Of a DNA stretch of 36,920 nucleotides, positions 1 through 23,663 are shown one piece after another. Position numbers and translations under genes: made by a program. A model generated the notes under the pieces. The model saw only the letters and a list, made by a program, of their open reading frames with translations. It was not told the origin of the DNA and did not search any database. This DNA comes from Candidatus Undinarchaeales archaeon (GTDB lineage: Archaea; SpSt-1190; JASMDC01). Position 1 is the stretch's first letter. Each line of letters opens with the position of its first letter. The stretch spans positions 240 through 37,159 of the forward strand of contig JASMDC010000034.1 in assembly GCA_030753015.1 (NCBI GenBank). Direction: 5' to 3'.

Positions 1-3000
1 ACGAGCAGCTCGGCACCAACACCAACTCCGCCGCCACCCTGCAACGTCAACCTCGAAGGCACACCTTACCACATCAACACGCAGGATTGCATCTGCGAGT
101 TCCAGTGCGGACCCAACTGGGTGTATGAATCGCACAGCGAGGACCGGATCGATGTTGGTAATATCTACAAGGACTGTCCCAATCCTGAATCCGAAGAAAT
201 GAATAACGATGAGCCGTTCCTGACGAGCGTGACGTGTAAGTACGTTACGCCGACTCCCGAACCGACGCCGACTCCTACACCTTCCCCAACACCCACACCG
301 ACGCCCCCGACAGATATTATCGTAGCAAATACGGAACTGGTCCCGATAGCTCCGACGTTGACCGGGATATGGCAGCCAAATAACTACCTTGCCCAGCACG
401 GTATCAATCCGGACGACGTCCAGGACATCATACTTAAGTTCCAGATGCAAGGTGATCTGAGCGGTGAGTACCCTCCTTCAACTCCACTTGCGTCCCCGCT
501 GAACGAGTCAGTCTCCTTCTGGGTCGATGGTTTGTTCCTCGGTTATTATGGTAACTGCTATTCTGAGACCCAAGAACAAATACCATGCACGCAAGGTGGC
601 TGTTGTCAGTGTCCACAGACAGAGGTGTCTGTACTAGAGCTGGCACTCGACGACGAGCTCAGTATCCTGGTGAAAGGCACGAATGACATTTCCGGCGATC
701 CGTGCCAACTCGGCGCTCCTTTCCGAGCCGAGGTCATGCTCGTAGCAATTCTAAAGGAAGGTGCTGGAACTGGTACCGGTACAGGTACCGGTACAGGTAC
801 CGGTACGGGTACCGGAACCGGTACAGGTAGTGGCACAGGAAGTGGTACGGGTACAGGGGCGGCTTCGGATTACAATCCCACATACTGCACTGTATTGTCG
901 ACCGGCGTATGGGACGCTACAAATGGCTGCTGTGATACCGATGATGCCTGGTGCGCCGATGATGGATGGTACTGCTACGACGGTCATCGGTCACCGCTCT
1001 CCGATCTTTCGGGCGGTGCATGCGCCTGCCTCTCCCCTGGAAGCGGCTGGGACACAACACGCATGTGCTGTGATGCATGGGATTCTTGGCCGACGGCCTG
1101 TCACGCCGAGGAACCAGGGGAGGACCTTGGGGCAGTGGATGCCTACTTTGCTTCCGGAGCCGGACATACGGCGCTCCTTGATTTGGATAAAGAGAGTAAG
1201 ACCATCATAGATAAGATGCGCGAGGCCTACATGGTGGCCTACATATTCGATGCAGGCGCTGATATTTCTGAGATTAATGCGTTCCGAGGTCTGACCGAGG
1301 ATGAGTATCATACCCTGATCCGGGACACGCTCCGCACACGTGCGGACGCGCGGGTCAAGGAGATACTGGATATGCCCCTCTTCCAGCGCCCGCCGGACCC
1401 GACGGCCGATATAGTCGCACTGGTGAACAACGGCCTCACCGCAGAGGAGCTCGACAAGCTTTCTCGGTACAGCGAGAACCGCTCCTACGTGGCGGTCGTG
1501 CTCGGACGCATCGATGCCGCGAGCGTCCCGATCACGGTCAGTGTGGTCAAGCAGTTGGGGGACGACTCTCTCGGTGACGAAGTTCGGCGTCGCCTCATCA
1601 CGCATACCTGGTCGGTGTTCTCTCGCAGGCTCGATCACGATGCAAAGTTGTTCTCAAGTACCTGCTCGCTGGATTCGGACCTGCGCGCTCTCAACGTCCA
1701 AGATGATATCGACCTTGTGGCGATGGAGTACGCGCAGGTCAACGACCTCCTTGTTCTACTGGAGGACGATCCGGACGGTTCGATGTGCGGGAACTGGTTC
1801 AACCGCGGAGGGTGCGGGAGATGGAAAGCGTACACTGTCGCATCTCGTCCCGTCGACATACTCGCATGGACATGCAACGAACCGGAGTGTACATGCCTCT
1901 CACCGACATTCTCGGTCAATGATGTGCTCACGATGTCGAACGCGTTCTCTCCTGCTCAAGAGTACTCATTCCCAGAGGAACGAGGACAGAGCTGGACCGA
2001 CCGGTTCACGCCGTCCGCGGGTAGGATCATCGTAGAATCGGACGGGTGTTTCTTCCTCCGGATGTCCCAGAAGCTTCCCTATGGGCAATTCGTACCTCTC
2101 GATACCGAAGGGGATTGTACGAAGGTGTTTACAGGTGACGGCTGTAGCAGTGTCAAGGATTATGAAGCCCCCGATAGTGAGATTGTTGCTGAAGTGATGC
2201 CGTTCGATGAGAAGGAGGCGTCGCTCTTCGATCCACCTTGGTGGGACGAGAGATGGTCACACCGTGTTCCTGTCACGATCACCAATGCGGTCGCTACTGA
2301 TCTCACGAATGTGCAGGTCGTAGTACCTCTGGACACTAAGGCAATCATCGACGCCGGTAAGATGGGTTCGGATTGCGGCGATATCCGCGTCGTCGACCAA
2401 GAGGGAGCTCTCTTATCACATTGGGTGGGTCCTGACTGTGGGGGGACAGCGACGAAGGCATGGGTGAAGCTCGCAACCCTCCCGGCATCGGGCACAGTAG
2501 TCTTCCATATCTACTATGGGAACAAAGACGTAGGTTCGATCAGTGACGGCCCGTCCGTCTTCGCCCTCTTCGATGACTTCGAGGACGGTAATATCGACGG
2601 CTGGGCCGCCTCCCAGACACTTAAGGACGCCTCTGGGGAGACCTACCAGGTCACCGCCACCAGCGACTCTGCAGGCGCAGGCACGTACAGTCTTTTCATC
2701 GATACGCATGCCAGCTGCTACGCAACGCCGTGTTGCGGTATCTACGCACTAGCCTCCCGGGACGTCGGGCTCCCTGACGGCACGTACGTGGTCGATCTTC
2801 TACGACGGGCCTGGGGGCAGAGGTGGGGTTACTGTGGTAAAGGTGGTGGAGCATGGGTTCCCCGGTCGTTCGTGCGCCACGGTGATGCGGACATATTCTC
2901 AACGACAGCGACCTATACGAGCAACGAATGCGGGAGCGGGGACATCAACTGGGGCGAGGTGACAACTGATCCTTTCGATGTTACGGGCGGCACCGCCACA

Positions 3001-6000
3001 ATCCGCCTTGTCACATACTCCTGGGACTGTGAGGACGGCAGAGGATGGTTCGACGACGTGCGTGTCCGCAAGAGCGTGGACCCTGCACCTGCGGTCACCT
3101 CTGGCGACGAGGAGTCGCTGGAGCCAGAGAGCAGCGACTGGATTCCATCAAAAGCACCATTCGACGAGAACGTAGTTAACAGCGAGACGTCCGGAGGGTT
3201 CGGGACCGCGCTGGCTTTCGATGGCGTAGATGAATACGTGGCCGTGCCTTCTCATGCAACGATCAACTTCGCAGGGGATGACGACTTCACCCTCGAGGCC
3301 TGGGTGTACAACGAGGCTGATGGGACCGCATCACACATCATCGGAAAGCGGTTCGTCGGGCGTTGCGATCTCAGCCTCTATCTGGAGGTGAAAGCGGACA
3401 ACAAGCTCACGTTCGGCATAGACAGCTTCTCGTGCTCGACGTGTGGTGGCTCGAGCGCTCGTTGCTGGAGCTGGACCACGTCCACAACAGAAGTGCCTGC
3501 CAACCGTTGGGCTCATGTGGCGATAGCGAAGAGCGGATACGACGTCAAGATGTACATCAACGGAAAGCTCGACGCCACGGGCACGCTATCGTCCGAATCC
3601 TACGGCGCCAAGACCGCCGCCACCGAACTGAGGATCGGCCGGTCGCGCGGTGAGCATCCTAATGACGTCGTCGATTATTTCAATGGCAAGATCGACGAGG
3701 TGCGTGTCTGGAACACCGCTCTGAACGAGGGGACGATCCGCGATTGGATGTACAAGACGGTCGATGCGACACACACTTCATATTCCAACCTCGTGGCTTA
3801 CTACCCGTTCGATGAGGGCGAGGGCAATACCGCTGCCGACCTCGCGGGTGGGGACAACGATGGAACACTTATGAACATGGAAGGAGGTCCCGTACTCGTC
3901 GAGGTCGCCGCCGATGTGTGTGGTGACGGCCAAAGGGGTTTCGCCTTCCGGGACAGGAATGGTGACGGTATCAATGACGCGCTATGCTCACCGCCCCCGA
4001 AGACCGGATGCTGGTGCACGGGCCCCGACTGCTGTTGTTGCTACGTCAAGTATCACGATCACGATCTTGGCGCCGTGTACAAGCCGGAAGCGCTCGTCGT
4101 CCAGTTCGCGTCTAGCTACCCGAGCCCTGGGAAGAGCGCTGAGGTGTCAGTGTCCACCGATGGTCACGAATGGACCCTGATCGGCGAGACAAATCCCGGT
4201 TGGAAAGGGAGTCCGCGCAACACAACCTTCAATGTCAAGGGTAAATCCTTCCGATTTGTTCGTGTCAAAGCCACACAAGGGTACAACGACGACTGGTCGG
4301 GCGTATGGGTTTACGAATCTGAACGTCATGGTCCCTTCGACCTCGCGTTCGGCCGTGCGGGTGATACACTGGACACCCCGTCGATCTCTTGTGGTAGCCT
4401 CCCTTGCCGCTATATATTCAAACCGGGGGCGGGTAATCTCCAGGTCGCGACCGACCAGGAACTGAACATCACGCTCCGCAAGCTCGGGACGTTCGAACGG
4501 ATAATCAAGCCGGCAGCCCAGGACATGATCGCGAGCGCTGAGGAGGACCAGATCGCCGTCATCGAGAACCTCATCGCGATTCTCGGCGACGCTCCGGAGG
4601 GTCTTGGTATCGGCCAAGAGCTCCGGGAGATCGGAAGGGAGGCATCTGAGGTGCTCAACCAGAGCGTCGATGTCATTTTCGCGAGCGAGGCCCTGTATTC
4701 CGTCGGTCTGGACCTGAACATAACTGGGCTAACGAACGAGACCCTCGAAGCCCTGGTGAACGGTACATGGCTCGCTCTACAGCTCGATATCGAAGGATCC
4801 CGGGAGGTCATCTCCGACGCGGCCTCACTATCGGATCATGCGGCCCGGACCATCCGTACCAGAGAGAACGTGCGCACGATCGCGGAACAGGCATTAGTGA
4901 AGGTAATCCTTGAACGGGCCTCCGCGGCGAAGGAGGGCCGTCTCGCCCTCGTACTCGGCGCTCGCAAGCTCGTCGTGGATATCTATGCGAGCGTTCTCGG
5001 CTTTGAGGCGACGGCTGAGCTAGTCGCCAAGCTCAATCTCGCTATCGAGGAGTTAAAGAAGCCCGAGCCTGACGAGGCCATCGTCGAGGACGCCCTGCAG
5101 TTCGTACGTGAGAACCTCCCCGAGGTCGAGTATATGGGTTCGAACGTCGTACCCGTCCTCGGACTGGGTCGGGGGGAGCTCGCAGCTTCGGCACGCATTG
5201 CCGGCGGGACCTCTACGGGGATGTCCACAGTCGTAGAACGAATGCAGGGTCTGATCGAGGGGACATCCGTTAATACATCAGTCGACACCTACCTTGTTAA
5301 TGGCAAGCAGGTCTCTGTGTTCACCATGTCAATCGAGAACGAGGGGGACAAGGAGCTAAAGGACGTGGGCATGCCCCTCAAGATCGCGAAATGTCATCTC
5401 ACATGGTTCAACGATGCTAACTTCGACGAGAAGCCGTCGATGGTGCGGCCCGATCCGCTCGTGCTCTGGAACCTCGGCAACCTCAGGCCCAAGCAGAAGA
5501 CCGAGCTCAAGTTCTCGACGACGCGTATCTTCTGCTCGGACGGCTCCACGTGCACAGGGGGCGCCTTCTGCGCGGACATCTGCCTCACCTTGGGACAGTG
5601 CGCGACGTCCTGCCAGGTATGTGGTCAGGTGTGCGACTCCGATCCCGATAAGGACGAGATGTGCTCGAGCGATGGTGGGTGCGTACCAAGGGGCTCGAAG
5701 CTCCGTAACGAGCGGTGTGGATGCGATCCTGAGTGCGAGACGGACAACTGTGTCCGCAGCGTGTGCTGCGAAAAGAACGAGTTCGCTGATGCTTCGGGAC
5801 AGTGCACCGATGTCGTGAACATGATGAATGTAGAAGTGGAAGCGCTCTCGATAGTGCTCGATGACGAACGCGTGATCCCGATCCACCTAATAAATCCTCT
5901 CAGTCGGCTCGCAGACGTGGACGTCATCATCGTGGAGGGCGGGGCGTTCGCTGAACTTTCGCGACAAAAGGTCGCCCTCGGTCCGGGCGAGAAGCAGCTG

Positions 6001-6234
6001 ATCGGGCTCCGTGTACAGGCCCTCCAGGCCGGCACCCATTCCGTGGTGCTCGACCTGAGCTCGGCTGACGGGATACGTGAATCCTTATCCATTTCCGTAC
6101 AGGTGCTCACGGATACAGAATCGATGGGCATCGAGATGCGTACGGCACCCGGTCCCGGCCTACCCTTGCTGACGGTCCTTGCGGCAGTATGCGCTTTGTG
6201 GACCTCCACTGGACGTCGACGCGAGAGTGACTGA
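1..6234 (+). CDS. giant multidomain cell-surface protein, 5' end missing
   Basis: The frame is open from base 1, so the gene begins left of the window; at least 2077 residues are present. In order it has a Thr-Pro linker (residues ~81-104), a Gly-Thr repeat (~254-286), a Cys-rich segment, a DUF2341 domain starting at WWDERW (~747) that ends in the usual DDVRVRK block (~1016), a LamG/concanavalin-like domain (~1067-1277), a second Cys-rich patch, a discoidin-like beta domain (~1347-1442), a long helical region (~1480-1700), another Cys-rich block (~1845-1935) and a C-terminal tail with a PGPG motif, a hydrophobic segment and an Arg-rich end. DUF2341 and LamG are typical of archaeal surface or adhesion proteins. 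The tail fits membrane anchoring and resembles archaeosortase PGF-CTERM signals. An extracellular binding or structural role is inferred; no catalytic motif was recognised. Confidence 0.85.
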   Translation, partial: TSSSAPTPTPPPPCNVNLEGTPYHINTQDCICEFQCGPNWVYESHSEDRIDVGNIYKDCPNPESEEMNNDEPFLTSVTCKYVTPTPEPTPTPTPSPTPTPTPPTDIIVANTELVPIAPTLTGIWQPNNYLAQHGINPDDVQDIILKFQMQGDLSGEYPPSTPLASPLNESVSFWVDGLFLGYYGNCYSETQEQIPCTQGGCCQCPQTEVSVLELALDDELSILVKGTNDISGDPCQLGAPFRAEVMLVAILKEGAGTGTGTGTGTGTGTGTGTGTGSGTGSGTGTGAASDYNPTYCTVLSTGVWDATNGCCDTDDAWCADDGWYCYDGHRSPLSDLSGGACACLSPGSGWDTTRMCCDAWDSWPTACHAEEPGEDLGAVDAYFASGAGHTALLDLDKESKTIIDKMREAYMVAYIFDAGADISEINAFRGLTEDEYHTLIRDTLRTRADARVKEILDMPLFQRPPDPTADIVALVNNGLTAEELDKLSRYSENRSYVAVVLGRIDAASVPITVSVVKQLGDDSLGDEVRRRLITHTWSVFSRRLDHDAKLFSSTCSLDSDLRALNVQDDIDLVAMEYAQVNDLLVLLEDDPDGSMCGNWFNRGGCGRWKAYTVASRPVDILAWTCNEPECTCLSPTFSVNDVLTMSNAFSPAQEYSFPEERGQSWTDRFTPSAGRIIVESDGCFFLRMSQKLPYGQFVPLDTEGDCTKVFTGDGCSSVKDYEAPDSEIVAEVMPFDEKEASLFDPPWWDERWSHRVPVTITNAVATDLTNVQVVVPLDTKAIIDAGKMGSDCGDIRVVDQEGALLSHWVGPDCGGTATKAWVKLATLPASGTVVFHIYYGNKDVGSISDGPSVFALFDDFEDGNIDGWAASQTLKDASGETYQVTATSDSAGAGTYSLFIDTHASCYATPCCGIYALASRDVGLPDGTYVVDLLRRAWGQRWGYCGKGGGAWVPRSFVRHGDADIFSTTATYTSNECGSGDINWGEVTTDPFDVTGGTATIRLVTYSWDCEDGRGWFDDVRVRKSVDPAPAVTSGDEESLEPESSDWIPSKAPFDENVVNSETSGGFGTALAFDGVDEYVAVPSHATINFAGDDDFTLEAWVYNEADGTASHIIGKRFVGRCDLSLYLEVKADNKLTFGIDSFSCSTCGGSSARCWSWTTSTTEVPANRWAHVAIAKSGYDVKMYINGKLDATGTLSSESYGAKTAATELRIGRSRGEHPNDVVDYFNGKIDEVRVWNTALNEGTIRDWMYKTVDATHTSYSNLVAYYPFDEGEGNTAADLAGGDNDGTLMNMEGGPVLVEVAADVCGDGQRGFAFRDRNGDGINDALCSPPPKTGCWCTGPDCCCCYVKYHDHDLGAVYKPEALVVQFASSYPSPGKSAEVSVSTDGHEWTLIGETNPGWKGSPRNTTFNVKGKSFRFVRVKATQGYNDDWSGVWVYESERHGPFDLAFGRAGDTLDTPSISCGSLPCRYIFKPGAGNLQVATDQELNITLRKLGTFERIIKPAAQDMIASAEEDQIAVIENLIAILGDAPEGLGIGQELREIGREASEVLNQSVDVIFASEALYSVGLDLNITGLTNETLEALVNGTWLALQLDIEGSREVISDAASLSDHAARTIRTRENVRTIAEQALVKVILERASAAKEGRLALVLGARKLVVDIYASVLGFEATAELVAKLNLAIEELKKPEPDEAIVEDALQFVRENLPEVEYMGSNVVPVLGLGRGELAASARIAGGTSTGMSTVVERMQGLIEGTSVNTSVDTYLVNGKQVSVFTMSIENEGDKELKDVGMPLKIAKCHLTWFNDANFDEKPSMVRPDPLVLWNLGNLRPKQKTELKFSTTRIFCSDGSTCTGGAFCADICLTLGQCATSCQVCGQVCDSDPDKDEMCSSDGGCVPRGSKLRNERCGCDPECETDNCVRSVCCEKNEFADASGQCTDVVNMMNVEVEALSIVLDDERVIPIHLINPLSRLADVDVIIVEGGAFAELSRQKVALGPGEKQLIGLRVQALQAGTHSVVLDLSSADGIRESLSISVQVLTDTESMGIEMRTAPGPGLPLLTVLAAVCALWTSTGRRRESD
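763..858 (+). repeat. Gly-Thr-encoding short tandem repeat
   Basis: A run of alternating GGT/ACC-type codons with a mostly 6- and 12-base period (units close to GGTACCGGTACA) encodes a (Gly-Thr)n linker with a few Gly-Ser units inside the surface protein. Synonymous third-position changes interrupt the repeat, so it is not a perfect microsatellite. Length change by slippage in multiples of six bases would keep the frame. Confidence 0.85.
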
Positions 6235-6830: not shown

Positions 6831-6882
6831 GGACGGCTGCCTCCGTGCACCCCGGTGACAGGGGGCAGGCCAATCGGTGGCG

Positions 6883-6891
6883 CTTAAAAAT
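6883..6891 (+). promoter_or_regulatory. TATA box of the aldolase-Fae gene
   Basis: CTTAAAAAT lies about 35 bases upstream of the ATG at 6923. A transcript starting roughly 25 bases downstream would have a very short leader containing GAGGGA (6912-6917). This supports the 6923 start over an upstream GTG at 6845. Confidence 0.55.
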
Positions 6892-6922
6892 CTACGTCAG
6901 ACGTCCGGAGCGAGGGACGGAT

Positions 6923-8410
6923 ATGTCTCAGAAAAGCTTCACACTATCGGGTGTGCTCCCCGCGCTCGTCACTCCTTTCGATAAGGAGGAGGACCTTGAC
7001 GAACCCGCGTACCGCACGCTCATCTCACATCTCATCGACCAGGGGGTCACCGGAGTGGTTCCAATGGGTACTACGGGCGAGTTCTCCAACATGACACTAG
7101 AGGAGCGCCAGCGTGCCGTGGAGGTGTGCATCGATGAGGTGAACGGGAGGGTGCCCGTGGTCGCAGGTATCGGTGACAGCGCTACCAAGCACGTCATCGC
7201 AGGAGGCCTTCATGCCATGGACGCGGGTGCGGACGCCGTCATCATCGTCACGCCCTACTACCTCAAGCCCGGGGCCAAGGGGCTCTACGAGCACTACGAC
7301 ACCATCGCCAGCAAGCTCGAGCTGCCCATCGTGCTCTACAACATCCCCGTGTGCACGGGGCTCAACCTCCCCTGGCAGGTGGTGGAGGACCTGGCCGACA
7401 TCGACAACATCGTTGCCATCAAGGACTCGTCAGGTGACATGAGGTACTTCATGTCCGTCCTGGAGAAGGTGGGCGACACACTTTCGGTGCTCATCGGTTG
7501 GGACGAGCTGGTCCAGCCCGCCCTTGCCGCCGGTGCTCATGGGATGATACTTGCCTCGGCCAACATAATCCCGGACATGTGGCTCCAGGTCTACGATCAT
7601 ATGAAGGAGGGCCGCATCGAAGAGGCCGTCGCCATCCAGCGAAAGGTCCAGAAGTTCACGCGCATCATCGTTGCCAGTGGCGCCCTCGGTACCAAGTGCT
7701 GCATGAACGACATGGGCGTCATACCGTCGGCCCGATGCCGTAAGCCCCTCATGCTCGGCGACACCCTATCCTTTGAGTTCCGCGACGAGCTGCGGGTTGA
7801 GCTGGAGACGTTCGGCAAGCTGGAGAAGAAGGCCATCACCTTCGAGTTCTCGCCCGATGAGCGTCTCGACTCTCGGTTCTTCCGCGTGGGCCTCACTCCC
7901 GAGACCATCAGCGGCTTCGACCTGCGTATCGGCGAGGCGCTGGTGGGCGACGGGAACGAGGTGGCCCACATCGACATACTCATCGGCAAGCGCGACGGAC
8001 CGGTGGGCGATGCCTATGCCCGTGCGCTCTCCAATCCCGTGAAGGGCTATGAGGTGCTACAGGTCATCCTGGAGCCGAACATGGTCGTCAAACCCAGTAC
8101 GATCATGGTCCCCACGGTGAGGAATCAGAGCCTCCGCCACTCGAGCCTTGTGTACGGCCCCGCCCAGGCTGCCATCGGCAAGGCGATCATGGACTCGGTG
8201 GAGGCTGGGATCCTGCCCGAAGTGGAGGAGCTGTTGATGATCGCCAACGTGTTCGTCCACCCGTCCGCCTCGCGACGAAAGCGAATCCATATCAACAACT
8301 ACAAGGCCATGCGCAACGCTATCAGGCACGCCATGGAAGGAACCCCCACGGTGGCAGACGCGCTCGAGCACGCCCGCTCTGCGCGCCACCCGTTCAGGGA
8401 CGAGATCTAG
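6923..8410 (+). CDS. fae: DapA-family aldolase fused to formaldehyde-activating enzyme (Fae)
   Basis: A 495-residue two-domain protein. Residues ~8-300 are a DHDPS/N-acetylneuraminate-lyase type TIM barrel with the GTTGE motif (Thr50-Thr51), Tyr139 in YNIP and Schiff-base Lys167 in VAIKDSSG. The Arg that follows YNxPS in true dihydrodipicolinate synthase is Cys144 here (YNIPVCTG), so the aldehyde substrate is probably not aspartate semialdehyde. Residues ~334-495 match Fae closely: IGEALVGDGNEVAHID with His349, EPN..VKPSTIMVP, YGPAQAA and a C-terminal SARHPF. Fae condenses formaldehyde with tetrahydromethanopterin to methylene-H4MPT. The fusion suggests that formaldehyde released or used by a pyruvate-type aldolase is handed to the C1 carrier (inference). 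The gene is followed 33 bases later by an unrecognised gene that is probably in the same operon. Confidence 0.88.
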   Translation: MSQKSFTLSGVLPALVTPFDKEEDLDEPAYRTLISHLIDQGVTGVVPMGTTGEFSNMTLEERQRAVEVCIDEVNGRVPVVAGIGDSATKHVIAGGLHAMDAGADAVIIVTPYYLKPGAKGLYEHYDTIASKLELPIVLYNIPVCTGLNLPWQVVEDLADIDNIVAIKDSSGDMRYFMSVLEKVGDTLSVLIGWDELVQPALAAGAHGMILASANIIPDMWLQVYDHMKEGRIEEAVAIQRKVQKFTRIIVASGALGTKCCMNDMGVIPSARCRKPLMLGDTLSFEFRDELRVELETFGKLEKKAITFEFSPDERLDSRFFRVGLTPETISGFDLRIGEALVGDGNEVAHIDILIGKRDGPVGDAYARALSNPVKGYEVLQVILEPNMVVKPSTIMVPTVRNQSLRHSSLVYGPAQAAIGKAIMDSVEAGILPEVEELLMIANVFVHPSASRRKRIHINNYKAMRNAIRHAMEGTPTVADALEHARSARHPFRDEI

Positions 8411-8443: not shown

Positions 8444-9700
8444 ATGGACATCAAGGACCTACAGATCACCCAGACGCGCCTCGACGAGGTGAACGCCGTC
8501 CTCACGGACCCTACCAATGACCTCGTCTCCGACCTGTTCAAGCTCATCGAGAAGTACGGTGGCATCGAGGAGATCCGCCGAAGAGCCGCTGAAGCAGGTA
8601 AGGTGAAGAACATTATGCTGCGCCTTGGCGAGATGCGCTCGCCCTTCGTAAAGGACCTGGAGTGGCTCATCGAGCAGAAGGAGAAGGGCGCGTTCATCTC
8701 CATCGATGACTACCGGAAGAAGACGCTGGGCGACAAAGCCGTGGGAATGACCTTCGATACTACCTCGGCGGTCACGCTCGAGATAAGCGCTTGCCAGTAC
8801 TTCTCCTTCTTCATGGCGCAGGCCCGTCAGGCCATAGAAAAGGGAGAGCTCATGCCCGGTCGCTTCATCCGCGTCCGGAACATGAAGGAGCAGGAGTCCG
8901 ACGGCGACCTTCTGGCCATGACCGCGGCCATGCAGATCATCGGCGCCAGCTGGTGCGAGACCTTGGACACTAAGGGGACCGACGGTTCCAACGTGCACCT
9001 GGGTGGTCCCGAGACCATCACCGGCTACTTCGGCGGGGTCGGTCAGCCAAACGAGTACGCTCTCAAATGGGCGGACGAGTTCCTCTACTATCACACCAAC
9101 TTTGGTGTGAAAGAGGTGCTCAACCTCAATCCAGGGACCGTGCTCATCGGCTACCTCCTCTACAGGCTCGGAGTCGATATCCAGTTCAAGATATCGGTGT
9201 TCATGGGCAATGACAATCCCTACGCTGTGATGTGGACGCTCATGCTAGCGAGGCTGCTCGCTCGTGAGGACGGTACGACTCCCCTCATCGGATTCAACTT
9301 CTCCAACTCCGTGGACAACACGACCATCGAGGCCAGCTCTCATGTCCGCAAATCCCTAGGACTCGAGGAGAACGTCAGGTTCGAGCATCACATCACCGAG
9401 ACCTGGAAGAGCATCGTGCGCCAGCCCTACAACCGGAGAGACGAGCTCATGGAGATCGCACCGACGGTGCCCAACATCTCGGCCAAGCACGAGGGCGGTG
9501 AGGTCGATGTGGACAGTAAGCGTGATCACCCGTCGGACATCCTCGACTACTTCGTACCGCGTGCGGACATCGAGGCGCAGGGGCTCATGGATGCAATGAC
9601 CCGTAACTATCTGGACAAACACGAATCGGTGAACATCACTGCTCGGGCACTGATGGAGCACGGCCAGACGTTCGTAGCGGCGACCGAACTGCACAAGTAG
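8444..9700 (+). CDS. unrecognised soluble 418-residue protein, partner of aldolase-Fae
   Basis: I do not recognise the family. The protein has no signal peptide or membrane segment and looks like an alpha/beta enzyme. The N-terminal ~110 residues are helical and charged. A conserved-looking centre has GASWCETLDTKGTDGSN (around residues 167-183), then HLGGPETITGYFGG and a GFNFSNSVDNTTIEASSHVRKS block near residue 285. The C-terminal part contains HEGGEVDVDSKRDHPSD. The runs of Asp, His and Asn in loops would suit a metal- or cofactor-binding barrel, but that is a guess. The ATG at 8444 has GAGGA at 8432-8436. The short distance from the DapA-Fae stop codon suggests co-transcription and a shared C1 or aldol reaction. 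Confidence 0.75.
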   Translation: MDIKDLQITQTRLDEVNAVLTDPTNDLVSDLFKLIEKYGGIEEIRRRAAEAGKVKNIMLRLGEMRSPFVKDLEWLIEQKEKGAFISIDDYRKKTLGDKAVGMTFDTTSAVTLEISACQYFSFFMAQARQAIEKGELMPGRFIRVRNMKEQESDGDLLAMTAAMQIIGASWCETLDTKGTDGSNVHLGGPETITGYFGGVGQPNEYALKWADEFLYYHTNFGVKEVLNLNPGTVLIGYLLYRLGVDIQFKISVFMGNDNPYAVMWTLMLARLLAREDGTTPLIGFNFSNSVDNTTIEASSHVRKSLGLEENVRFEHHITETWKSIVRQPYNRRDELMEIAPTVPNISAKHEGGEVDVDSKRDHPSDILDYFVPRADIEAQGLMDAMTRNYLDKHESVNITARALMEHGQTFVAATELHK

Positions 9701-14656: not shown

Positions 14657-15073
14657 CTACTCACGGCCCAAGGCGGCGACGACGACGCGGTAATAGTAGA
14701 CCTCGCCTGCCGTCTGTGACTCTCGCTTGATCCTGATGATGTCCCCGGGTTTCGCATTGAGCGATACCACGGCAGGATCTTTCTGGAGGATCTTTGGGAG
14801 CTGTCGCAGGTCGACATTGTACTGCCCGAGGAGCTTCTCTACATCTTCCTTGGTTAGGACCTCGTGGTTAGGGACGAGACCGTGCATGAAGAGGTCGAAG
14901 TTGGCCCCACGATACTCAGCATAGTACTCCCGTAGCCTGTTAGCATCCAAGTTCTCGGCTAGTCTTTGGATGAGCTCATTCTTCTTTCCCTTTGTCTGGA
15001 GCTTCTCTTCCTTGGCTATTTCAGCAAGCTCTTTGTAACGTAGATTGTTCAATAGTGATTCGATACCTATCAT
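14657..15073 (-). CDS. rpoH: RNA polymerase subunit H (Rpb5-type) with N-terminal SAP domain
   Basis: A 138-residue protein. Residues ~63-138 match archaeal RpoH, the C-terminal domain of eukaryotic Rpb5: [54 protein letters not shown]. Residues ~8-43 form a SAP-like helix-extended loop-helix ([29 protein letters not shown]), a DNA-binding motif that standard archaeal RpoH (about 80 residues) lacks. RpoH normally sits just before rpoB. Here it lies in an operon between the CBS-HPF gene and two membrane proteins. The ATG at 15073 has GAGGTG about eight bases upstream. It is a subunit of the archaeal RNA polymerase jaw, and the SAP part may add contact to DNA near the polymerase. Confidence 0.88.
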
Positions 15074-15084
15074 GGATTTTCACC

Positions 15085-16176
15085 TCATCGTCTCTTACGG
15101 GGCGTGACCTCTTTCTCAAGGCGCTTGAACGCCTTGGAAGTGCACGCAATGAGGTCCCAGCTGTTGGCCGTCGCGGCATGAACCTTGAGCCCCGCGACCG
15201 CCCGCACCTTGACCTCGTACTCGACATTGGCCTTCTTATCATGAAGGCGCTTGACATGGACATGGACCTTCTCGAGGTCGGTCAGGAAGGTCGAGAGCTT
15301 CTGGACATACTCACTTGTGACCTTCTTGAACACGCCGACCGTGAAGCCCTCTTCCTCATCAAGACCCTTTATCTGAACTAGAGCGCGTCGTCCTGCTGGT
15401 TCGACGAGCCTTCGAAGAATGCCTTTCCGTGTAACGAGCCCGATGGGCTCGCCTGTCTCATTTGACACGGGGACGGCACGAAGGCGATTATCGAGCATGA
15501 GCTTGATAGCATCTGTTACGAGGCGGTGCCGCTCAAGGACGTGTGATTCCCGAGGCATGATTGAAGTGACCGGGTTCCCTAGCGCGTGGTGCTTGATACC
15601 TGCCAACTCGCCTAGGGTTTCGCGCTCCTTCGGATGGATTAGGATCGAGATAAGGTCGCGCCCTTCCACCATCCCGCTGAGACGGAAGTTGTCGTCGACA
15701 ACGACGAGCCTGTTGACACGGTGGTTCTTCATCAACGCACGAGCAGTGTCGATGCTCTCCTTCTCGTTGATGGTGATCGGCGAGAGGCTCATGAACTCCT
15801 CGACCGCATCGTCACCCTCATACTGCTCAAGGATATCGTCGATGCAAACCGCACCCAGGAGATTGCCTTCCTCCACGACGGGAATGGTCTCCACACCGGA
15901 CTGCAGCATCTTCCGTGCAGCGATTTCAACCGTATCCTCTGGACGGATGGTCGGGGGCGGGAACATCACGGTGCGGACCTTGGATGTCGTCGGATTGATG
16001 GTGCCGTCCAGGACACTGTGGATGGTGAGCATCCCCTCAAGCGTGCTGTTCGACACGACGATCATCTCCCTGATGGACTTCCTCGTCATCTCGCTAATTG
16101 CCTTGACGACTGATCCTTCGGCGGATGCCTTTGGAACATTACTGCGAATCATGTCACGAGCAAAACTCTGCATCAT
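15085..16176 (-). CDS. four-CBS protein with C-terminal HPF/RaiA-like domain
   Basis: A 363-residue protein. Four CBS motifs occupy roughly residues 5-60, 70-125, 130-190 and 205-262. They show typical GMLTIHSVLDG, GAVCIDDILEQ, GMVEGRDLISIL and GLVTRKGILRRLV ends. CBS pairs bind adenine nucleotides. Residues ~285-355 resemble the ribosome hibernation/sigma54-modulation fold (LEKVHVHVKRL, YEVKVRAVAGLKVHAATANSWDLIACTSKAFKRLEKEV). A protein that ties ribosome dormancy to energy charge is the natural reading (inference). The start is set at the ATG at 16176 (a second ATG is at 16173), about 27 bases after a TTAATAAT element. The upstream TTG at 16200 is unlikely. It is the first gene of an operon with rpoH. 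Confidence 0.85.
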   Translation of the reverse strand: MMQSFARDMIRSNVPKASAEGSVVKAISEMTRKSIREMIVVSNSTLEGMLTIHSVLDGTINPTTSKVRTVMFPPPTIRPEDTVEIAARKMLQSGVETIPVVEEGNLLGAVCIDDILEQYEGDDAVEEFMSLSPITINEKESIDTARALMKNHRVNRLVVVDDNFRLSGMVEGRDLISILIHPKERETLGELAGIKHHALGNPVTSIMPRESHVLERHRLVTDAIKLMLDNRLRAVPVSNETGEPIGLVTRKGILRRLVEPAGRRALVQIKGLDEEEGFTVGVFKKVTSEYVQKLSTFLTDLEKVHVHVKRLHDKKANVEYEVKVRAVAGLKVHAATANSWDLIACTSKAFKRLEKEVTPRKRR

Positions 16177-16198
16177 GGTCGTCACTCCAAGGATGAAC

Positions 16199-16207
16199 AA
16201 TTATTAA
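16199..16207 (-). promoter_or_regulatory. TATA box of CBS-HPF/rpoH operon
   Basis: On the minus strand GTTAATAAT lies about 27 bases upstream of the ATG at 16176. It overlaps the last codons of the elp3 gene, so the operon has its own promoter inside the upstream gene's end. Confidence 0.55.
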
Positions 16208-21657: not shown

Positions 21658-22335
21658 ATGGGCCATGGTATGGGTCTAACAGATGAGATGCGCTATCTAC
21701 TACTAGTCTCTCTCTTCGGTTTCTCCGGTGTCATCCTTACATGGGCCCTGAACATAGTGTTCGTGTACCTGGCCAACGAGATCGTTGTTTCGTTGGGTGC
21801 TGTGGGGCGGCTCATCCCGGGACTTGCTGACCATCTGGTGACCTTGGTATCTGGTTCGCTGTGGGGATTCTTCCTGTTCCTCGGTGTTTCCCAGGCTCGA
21901 GGTAAACGACAGAAGACGCACTCCTCCCAATTTACCTTGTGCTCCCTCTCCTTGGGATTCTCTCTTCTGGGCGCGAGCGCTATAATCGAACTCCTTGCAA
22001 TGATACTCCCTGGACTCGTTGATGTCGTCGGCCATATCCTACATGGAGCGCTCCTCGGCTGTCTTTATGGTGCCTTCCTGGCCCAGATCCTGCGCCTTAA
22101 TGTCTGGCATATGTTCGTCCCTCTCCTCAGTGTCGGTGGTGCGGTCGGCGCCTTGGCAGTAAATGTTCTCCAGGATGTTCCAATGAGTTCCCAAGGCACT
22201 GTCGAAATGTATATCGCGCAGTACGCCTTTACGTCCCAAGGATTCGTGCTCGGCCTGTTCGCGGGATACGCATTCTTCCTCTGCGACATGCACATAGGGA
22301 TATTGCGCCATGCTCGGTGGATGCCCGAGGACTAG
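21658..22335 (+). CDS. polytopic membrane protein of unknown function
   Basis: A 225-residue protein with about six hydrophobic helices and short loops; not recognised. The only clearly charged loop is around residues 80-90 (QARGKRQKTHSS). Small residues are common in the helices (GHILHGALLGCLYGAFLAQ). The N-terminus reads MGHGMGL. Its 3' end overlaps the stop of the convergent FwdB gene by four bases. A transport or channel role cannot be supported from sequence alone. Confidence 0.75.
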   Translation: MGHGMGLTDEMRYLLLVSLFGFSGVILTWALNIVFVYLANEIVVSLGAVGRLIPGLADHLVTLVSGSLWGFFLFLGVSQARGKRQKTHSSQFTLCSLSLGFSLLGASAIIELLAMILPGLVDVVGHILHGALLGCLYGAFLAQILRLNVWHMFVPLLSVGGAVGALAVNVLQDVPMSSQGTVEMYIAQYAFTSQGFVLGLFAGYAFFLCDMHIGILRHARWMPED

Positions 22336-23663
22336 CTGTATTCTGTGGGTTCTTTCTCCCTTAAGCGTGCGACCTCTTTCCTGAGGCGGTGGACGATCTC
22401 ACGGTCAGGGAGCAGACCACCGGGTGCAGACAGAGGTGCCCGCATGCGTACAGGTACACCATCCATCCGGTATGCTGTCCCCTCGGACTCAATTCCTGTG
22501 AAAGTGCAGGGAATGTACACGTCCGCGAGCTCGGACGTGACGTTCCATACCGGATCGATAACGATGACGGGGATTCGTCGTAGGGCGCCGAGGGACTTGA
22601 GCGGTAAGTGAGCAGCCGGGTCCGAAGCTACCACTAGGAGACAGTCGCACTCCCCCGAGGAGAGGACAGGGAACAGGTCCGTCTCACCCGGATTATAGCG
22701 GGGGTGGCCGCGGGAGAGGTCAACGGCGAAAGGGTAGCCCGTTCGCCAAGTGAACGCCTCACATGCACCCGTGACGTTATAATGGCCTCGCATGGGGAGG
22801 ACCACAGCCTTCGTGTGTTCACTCAGGTCCCTGATGAGGGAGAGGAGGGCGTCAACGTTACGATGACGGCCGGTCGATGTCGTCAGTCCCAATCCGAAGA
22901 AGAAGGCACAGAACTCACTGCTCTTGAGCGTGTCGGAGAGCCAGCGGAGCTCATCCAGGGGAACACCTTCGATGGGATCCGGAACGTCCTTTCCTTGTAC
23001 TAGCATACGTAGAGCGCATAGAGTCTCGTAATCGCTCCCAGGTCGGACCTTGATGAACTTGTCCGCTACTTCAGCCGTACCAGTGGGGCGGACGTCGACC
23101 ACGACCACCTTTCGATCGTCCCGGCCCTTTTCACGGAAAGCACCCTGCGGGAAGACGGTGTAGCGGCTCAAGTGCCGGTCATGGGATGCGGCGGGATTCG
23201 AGCCCCAGTATACCACACAGTCCGCGTGGTTGAGCACCTCGCCAAGTGTCGCGGAGGATATTCCCACTTCCTGGATGGCCTGGATGGAGGGTCCGTGGCA
23301 GAAGGATGAGCAATTGTCGACCAGGGCGCCCAATTCCTCAGCGAGATCAAGCCCCTCGCATATGGTCTCAGTACTTGTTGAGCTCCAGCCGAACAGGACT
23401 GGACGCTCTGCCTTCTCAAGGAGCATTGCCGCTTGTGTCAGGGATTCATCCAGTGTGGCATCGTGGAAGTGGTCAGCCCGGACATCCTTCAAATCTCCGC
23501 TCTTTACCCTGATTCTGGGGACGAGCTCTCGAGATGTTGGCCTGGAGAAGACGTGATCGCCGACCTTGCAGGCATTGCAGACCTCCGTTATCATGTTCCC
23601 CGAAGTACGCACTTCTATGTCGTCACAGAGGCATCCGCAGTAGGGACACACGACATCCTTCAC
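22332..23663 (-). CDS. fwdB: formylmethanofuran dehydrogenase subunit B (FwdB/FmdB)
   Basis: A 443-residue molybdo/tungstopterin oxidoreductase of the FwdB type. The N-terminus has the 4Fe-4S motif VCPYCGCLCDD (Cys6, Cys9, Cys13) with a further Cys at 32. The metal-coordinating Cys is in NCSSFCHGPS (Cys122), as in FwdB. It reduces CO2 to formate, or oxidises formyl groups in reverse, for transfer to methanofuran. It is translationally coupled to the FwdD gene (overlap 23660-23663). The amidohydrolase FwdA and the FwdC subunit are not in this window. Confidence 0.9.
   Translation of the reverse strand: MKDVVCPYCGCLCDDIEVRTSGNMITEVCNACKVGDHVFSRPTSRELVPRIRVKSGDLKDVRADHFHDATLDESLTQAAMLLEKAERPVLFGWSSTSTETICEGLDLAEELGALVDNCSSFCHGPSIQAIQEVGISSATLGEVLNHADCVVYWGSNPAASHDRHLSRYTVFPQGAFREKGRDDRKVVVVDVRPTGTAEVADKFIKVRPGSDYETLCALRMLVQGKDVPDPIEGVPLDELRWLSDTLKSSEFCAFFFGLGLTTSTGRHRNVDALLSLIRDLSEHTKAVVLPMRGHYNVTGACEAFTWRTGYPFAVDLSRGHPRYNPGETDLFPVLSSGECDCLLVVASDPAAHLPLKSLGALRRIPVIVIDPVWNVTSELADVYIPCTFTGIESEGTAYRMDGVPVRMRAPLSAPGGLLPDREIVHRLRKEVARLREKEPTEYS

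Follow-up and report, generated by a model that had tools for sequence, protein, structure and literature searches.

A fused DapA-type aldolase barrel and formaldehyde-activating enzyme as a candidate link between pyruvate and the H4MPT pathway in archaea

An open question of anaerobic and early metabolism is how Asgard archaea and Bathyarchaea tie their C1 units to central carbon, and the locus analyzed here raises it in a concrete form: what could be the function of a protein in which a DapA-type aldolase barrel is joined to a complete formaldehyde-activating enzyme (Fae)? The gene lies in the window, meaning the whole analyzed stretch of 36,920 nucleotides. The answer considered in this work, for which we judge the chances to be even, is a bifunctional Schiff-base pyruvate aldolase that would make or cleave a formaldehyde adduct, with Fae passing the formaldehyde to or from H4MPT.

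The fusion gene and its distribution

The enclosing open reading frame (6845-8410, plus strand) is continuous and its start was set at the ATG at 6923, where the homologues begin, which gives a single uninterrupted frame of 495 aa with the DapA-type barrel N-terminal and Fae C-terminal. The features of the fusion and its neighbor are the following.

6923..8410, plus strand: DapA-type barrel-Fae fusion, 495 aa, stop codon included (frame, Pfam, NCBIfam, 45 copies)
6944..7753, plus strand: DHDPS/DapA-type class I aldolase barrel (Pfam residues 8-277; the fold reaches about residue 300)
7352..7354, plus strand: Cys144 codon, site of the DapA carboxylate-binding Arg, E. coli Arg138 (alignment to 2YXG)
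7421..7423, plus strand: Lys167 codon, Schiff-base lysine (invariant, 45/45 fusions)
7928..8395, plus strand: Fae domain, residues 336-491 (Pfam; alignment to 1Y5Y/1Y60)
7967..7969, plus strand: His349 codon, conserved Fae histidine in GNEVAHID (alignment; 26/26 single-copy fusions)
8444..9700, plus strand: partner gene p418, a 418-aa TIM-barrel protein of no known family (linkage; AF2 model)

Pfam assigned the barrel to DHDPS (PF00701; profile positions 2-272 of 289, E 6.3e-77, 258.6 bits) and the C-terminal region to Fae (PF08714; profile positions 1-158 of 159, E 5e-52), and the fusion protein passed the NCBIfam models dapA (238.8 bits, cut-off 206) and one_C_fae (TIGR03126; 179.9 bits, cut-off 118). 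In the predicted structure (AlphaFold, mean pLDDT 87), modelled residues 7-300 superpose on DHDPS structures with a Z of 41 and an rmsd of 1.3 A over 289 residues. The N-terminal half is a member of the PF00701 class I aldolase superfamily by its barrel, Schiff-base Lys and Thr-Thr/Tyr pyruvate site, and the C-terminal half a member of the Fae family by its domain, conserved His and pterin-site motifs. The frame and both sets of profiles thus bear out the earlier note, made from this DNA alone, which had described a complete barrel joined to a complete Fae in one frame.

The relatives set comprised 197 genomes, the window's own counted, and six other archaeal genomes in it carry the fusion, namely G101 (63% identical to the window protein), G120 and four genomes of one family, f40. 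Two fusions stand in tandem in G120, as does a pair in each of the four f40 genomes. Scans of genome contigs and viral contigs with the window protein as lone query gave no match; in the wider genome contigs the fusion was detected only with an alignment of the Fae half as query, which retrieved nine Lokiarchaeota loci, many Bathyarchaeota, one Thermoproteota MAG, Borrarchaeum and four Chloroflexota MAGs. In total, 45 fusion copies read as a single frame. Chance, frameshift and chimeric assembly are therefore excluded.

In the barrel tree (45 fusions and 24 unfused archaeal homologues) all fusions fall on one side of one branch with support of 100/99, and in the Fae tree they are likewise separated from 40 canonical Fae domains by one branch (SH-aLRT 99, by a quick method). 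A single separating branch in both domain trees indicates that the domains stayed joined over phylum-level distances, for which a single ancient fusion event would be the simplest reading, and the Chloroflexota copies would imply transfer between domains of life. Both the wide spread and the age of the fusion are absent from the earlier note, as are the linked partner gene, the duplicated copies with complementary Fae half-sites and the presence of the fusion in Chloroflexota genomes that gave no Mch match, all described below.

Three other genes of the window were observed in their own right. A 2037-aa protein (121-6234, plus strand) with DUF2341, laminin-G-like and F5/8 type C domains is probably a large surface protein. 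An RNA polymerase subunit H (14657-15073, minus strand) has, besides its Rpb5 C-terminal domain, a SAP DNA-binding domain at the N-terminus, which is unusual for archaeal RpoH. In one protein at 15085-16200 (minus strand), a sigma-54 modulation/S30AE ribosome-hibernation-type domain comes after four CBS domains.

The barrel active site and the lysine question

Alignment to M. jannaschii DapA (2YXG) places Thr50, Thr51, Tyr139 and Lys167 on the DapA catalytic residues and Cys144 on the Arg of the 'YNVPSRT' motif, in agreement with the assignments made beforehand. Across the fusions, Lys, Tyr and Thr51 are conserved in 45/45 and Thr50 in 43/45; stated by equivalents, those of Tyr133 and Thr45 are invariant together with the active-site glycine, and that of Thr44 is Thr in 43/45. 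A DE pair is near-invariant as well (Asp194 45/45, Glu195 44/45). Arg at the DapA position is found in none of the 45 fusions (32 Cys, 8 Val, 5 others), while 21 of the 24 unfused archaeal homologues keep it. Since the Schiff-base Lys and the Tyr/Thr/Gly set are conserved, a Schiff base with a 2-oxo acid is expected, and since the Arg is lost throughout, a carboxylated aldehyde is not expected at that site. The description first given for one protein, a barrel devoid of the aspartate-semialdehyde Arg and equipped with pyruvate and Schiff-base residues, holds for 45/45 copies.

It could be argued that the fused barrel simply serves as the DapA of the lysine pathway and that Fae is attached as an unrelated passenger, given that the dapA model is passed (238.8 bits) and that the closest solved structures are DHDPS. 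The genomic context makes this highly improbable. No match to dapB (TIGR00036) was obtained in the window genome, which is 98.9% complete, against matches in 11 of 14 control genomes, and dapB is absent at the family cut-off from 12 of the 14 fusion genomes. The two fusion genomes with a full dapB are both Lokiarchaeal, and in each another, unfused DapA adjoins it (G101, C88; G201, C67). No second PF00701 (DapA-type) protein is encoded in the window genome. With neither dapB nor another DapA in the window genome and a separate DapA where dapB is present, the barrel is not the lysine enzyme; the replacement of the Arg in every copy and the retention of the fusion across phylum-level divergence argue in the same direction. 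Identity as a true lysine-pathway DapA was accordingly rejected (Cys144 in place of Arg; no dapB), and lysine biosynthesis is excluded as the role of the fused barrel in the window genome.

The Fae domain, tandem copies and linked genes

The GNEVAHID motif, to which the earlier reading had assigned His349, aligns with its counterpart in M. extorquens Fae (1Y5Y). Single-copy fusions keep the entire conserved Fae set in 0.97-0.99 of alignment cells, with 0.98-0.99 for the His face, PN-K-P and GPAQ. Fae is a ring-shaped pentamer whose pterin site lies between neighboring subunits, and it is against this architecture that the tandem pairs are best read. In copy A the N-terminal His face is fully preserved (60/60) and the C-terminal motif mostly so (65/70), with the PN-K-P face reduced to 13/40 and GPAQ to 3/30; copy B keeps PN-K-P (35/36) and GPAQ (27/27), with the His face at 15/54 and the C-terminus at 15/63. 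In the barrel tree the copy-A barrels form one clade and the copy-B barrels occupy several branches near the base.

As each tandem product carries only half a Fae active site, the two would have to assemble together, and the complementary losses at a site located between subunits predict that A and B form a hetero-oligomer with only one type of active interface. An obligate hetero-oligomer of the tandem products is thereby implied, judging from the alignments. The complementary partition also indicates that the pterin site is under selection, so that the sequence evidence favors a Fae site which is used rather than decorative.

Methenyl-H4MPT cyclohydrolase (Mch) is present in 12/12 archaeal fusion genomes tested, the window genome included, which points to H4MPT chemistry in them. 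Subunit B of formylmethanofuran dehydrogenase is encoded in the window at 22332-23663, and the window genome has no Fae besides the fused one. No Mch match was obtained in the two Chloroflexota genomes tested, both with tandem fusions; either H4MPT is not the carrier everywhere and another pterin serves in the Chloroflexota fusions, or those MAGs are incomplete.

These observations bear on a second alternative, in which the 2-oxo-acid aldolase reaction of the barrel involves a different aldehyde, neutral or hydroxylated, as in the N-acetylneuraminate lyase or sugar-acid aldolase branches, and Fae binds a pterin as a scaffold or works on C1 units by itself. In its favor, non-DapA branches of the superfamily have lost the Arg too, the DE pair could bind hydroxyls, and two Chloroflexota genomes with the fusion gave no Mch match. 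The strict co-conservation of the Fae active site and its complementary partition in tandem pairs argue, however, for coupled catalysis rather than scaffolding, and we regard this alternative as unlikely, though deserving serious weight.

The gene downstream of the fusion in the window, p418, has no Pfam, NCBIfam or PDB sequence match. The two genes lie close together in 21 of 36 loci, and their arrangement varies: p418 is upstream of the fusion and co-oriented with it in Lokiarchaea, divergently oriented in most Bathyarchaea, and downstream in L077 and the window. Seven of the 197 relatives have p418 (the window's own counted), six of them with the fusion, a co-occurrence with a Fisher p of ~6e-10 uncorrected for kinship. 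In family f40 the gene does not adjoin the fusion; an ECF S-component gene is beside it or one gene away in 4/4 genomes, and a threonine-synthase-like gene is near it in two. Its predicted structure (AF2, pLDDT 85) shows a TIM barrel preceded by a helical part, for which the match to the glutamate mutase E chain (1CB7_B; Z 12.1, rmsd 4.0, 243 aligned) ranks high but is tied with unrelated TIM barrels, and PF06368 (glutamate mutase E) has no match in the window genome. The linkage suggests that p418 acts in the same pathway as the fusion.

In p418's place, a family of about 316 aa adjoins the fusion in G120, one Bathyarchaeal locus and Chloroflexota. The protein is encoded directly upstream of the fusion or fusion pair, with 81% mean column identity across archaea and Chloroflexota, at the following positions.

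L094, 7072-8022, upstream of the fusion: 316-aa protein
L118, 7984-8934, upstream of the fusion: 316-aa protein
L063, 7340-8287, upstream of the fusion: 316-aa protein
L091, 8052-8990, upstream of the fusion: 316-aa protein

Profile comparison with p418 gave an E of 0.0017 at a probability of only 15%, and the 316-aa family may be its distant relative. Ten relatives without the fusion also have the family, and in the four fusion-less loci examined it stands beside citryl-CoA-lyase-, fumarase- and MmgE/PrpD-type genes. A separate observation on relatives without the fusion is a conserved cluster of four gene types at L199 8136-12193 and the equivalents in L197, L198 and L200, consisting of MmgE/PrpD, a U32-like TIM barrel of ~300 aa, an Fe-S fumarase/tartrate dehydratase-type protein and a citryl-CoA-lyase-like protein. 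In the Lokiarchaeal loci L062 and L068-L074, the fusion is in many cases followed by genes that on visual inspection resemble those for a peroxiredoxin and a nitroreductase.

Proposed chemistry and comparison with known systems

In the mechanism that we propose, Lys167 of the barrel would form a Schiff base with a 2-oxo acid, almost certainly pyruvate, and the barrel would make or break the bond from it to a small uncharged aldehyde. The Fae domain would convert formaldehyde and H4MPT to methylene-H4MPT, or release formaldehyde in reverse, and the natural adduct would be 4-hydroxy-2-oxobutanoate or a close relative, which the 418-aa barrel probably makes or uses. Where the fusion is duplicated, both products would be needed in one assembly. 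Substrate, direction, the role of p418 and channelling are all inferred. The choice of formaldehyde is suggested by the Fae domain and the missing carboxylate-binding Arg, neither of which identifies a substrate, and the Arg loss fits any neutral aldehyde. Nothing in the fusion neighborhoods stands out as a source or a sink of a C4 adduct.

One conceivable sink is biosynthetic: pyruvate and formaldehyde from methylene-H4MPT would yield 4-hydroxy-2-oxobutanoate and then, by amination, homoserine for Thr and Met, replacing homoserine dehydrogenase. Two genomes, the Chloroflexota G200 and the Bathyarchaeota G203, match this expectation with adjacent homoserine kinase and threonine synthase genes and no homoserine dehydrogenase match, and the threonine-synthase-like gene near p418 in two f40 genomes is in line with it. 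Against it, the window genome, G199 and G202 possess homoserine dehydrogenase, homoserine kinase and threonine synthase along with the fusion, and the Lokiarchaea and two Bathyarchaeal fusion genomes have no homoserine dehydrogenase match or homoserine kinase above the cut-off. Among the genomes compared, some of which are incomplete, the three enzymes vary independently of the fusion. Homoserine supply as a general role was rejected on this inconsistent pattern, and we consider the route doubtful, less credible than the other-aldehyde aldolase.

Returning to the pyruvate-formaldehyde aldolase, we put forward tentatively, at slightly less than even chances, the fuller proposal that a dedicated natural aldolase-Fae with a new TIM-barrel partner connects pyruvate with the H4MPT pathway, as a hitherto unrecognized C1-C3 junction, in lineages of Asgard archaea and Bathyarchaea. 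Several lineages would use an obligate two-protein assembly with half of every Fae site on each subunit. If a pyruvate aldolase-Fae is indeed at work, it would be a direct entry or exit between the H4MPT branch of the Wood-Ljungdahl pathway and pyruvate, and would provide nature's own catalyst for chemistry that synthetic biology at present takes from promiscuous aldolases. The complementary decay of the two Fae copies would be a clear example, found in nature, of how an active site shared by identical subunits becomes dependent on an obligate heteromer.

Comparison with DapA (dihydrodipicolinate synthase) reveals a common fold and common Schiff-base and pyruvate residues; unlike DapA, the window barrel lacks the carboxylate-binding Arg, has no dapB in its genome and is fused to Fae. 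The whole Fae domain aligns with M. extorquens Fae (1Y5Y/1Y60), sharing GxEVAHID, PN-K-P, GPAQ and the C-terminal motifs, and differs from it in being fused behind an aldolase and, in tandem pairs, in having its motifs split between two proteins.

Fae fused to an aldolase is already known from the archaeal Fae-HPS (PRK13307), likewise a union of Fae with an aldolase-type barrel handling formaldehyde, and the same carrier is expected in both. In Fae-HPS, the N-terminal Fae is followed by an HPS/OMP-decarboxylase-type barrel whose substrate is a sugar phosphate, whereas in the window fusion a DapA-type barrel with a Schiff-base lysine is N-terminal. PRK13307 matches the window protein over its Fae part only (residues 2-161 of 392; 141 bits against a cut-off of 274), and Fae-HPS identity was rejected, the score being below the cut-off and the barrel being PF00701 and N-terminal. 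Separate Fae frames in G101 (438 aa) and G120 (416 aa) have the length of Fae-HPS. By analogy, the fusion parallels the logic of Fae-HPS with a different aldolase and reversed domain order. A literature search, with most subscription papers outside its coverage, found no paper on a DapA-Fae fusion, consistent with the earlier impression that none had been described, nor on this domain order, a split hetero-oligomer or a linked partner with Fae.

The homoserine cycle, a synthetic route, includes a HOB aldolase step, and its reaction is the one proposed for the fusion. RhmA belongs to the class II aldolases, which depend on a metal. A review describes HOB (4-hydroxy-2-oxobutanoate) as a non-native metabolite and the HOB aldolase activity as promiscuous in E. 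coli RhmA (PMC8879981). RhmA was recruited by engineers, whereas the window fusion would be a dedicated natural class I enzyme fused to Fae.
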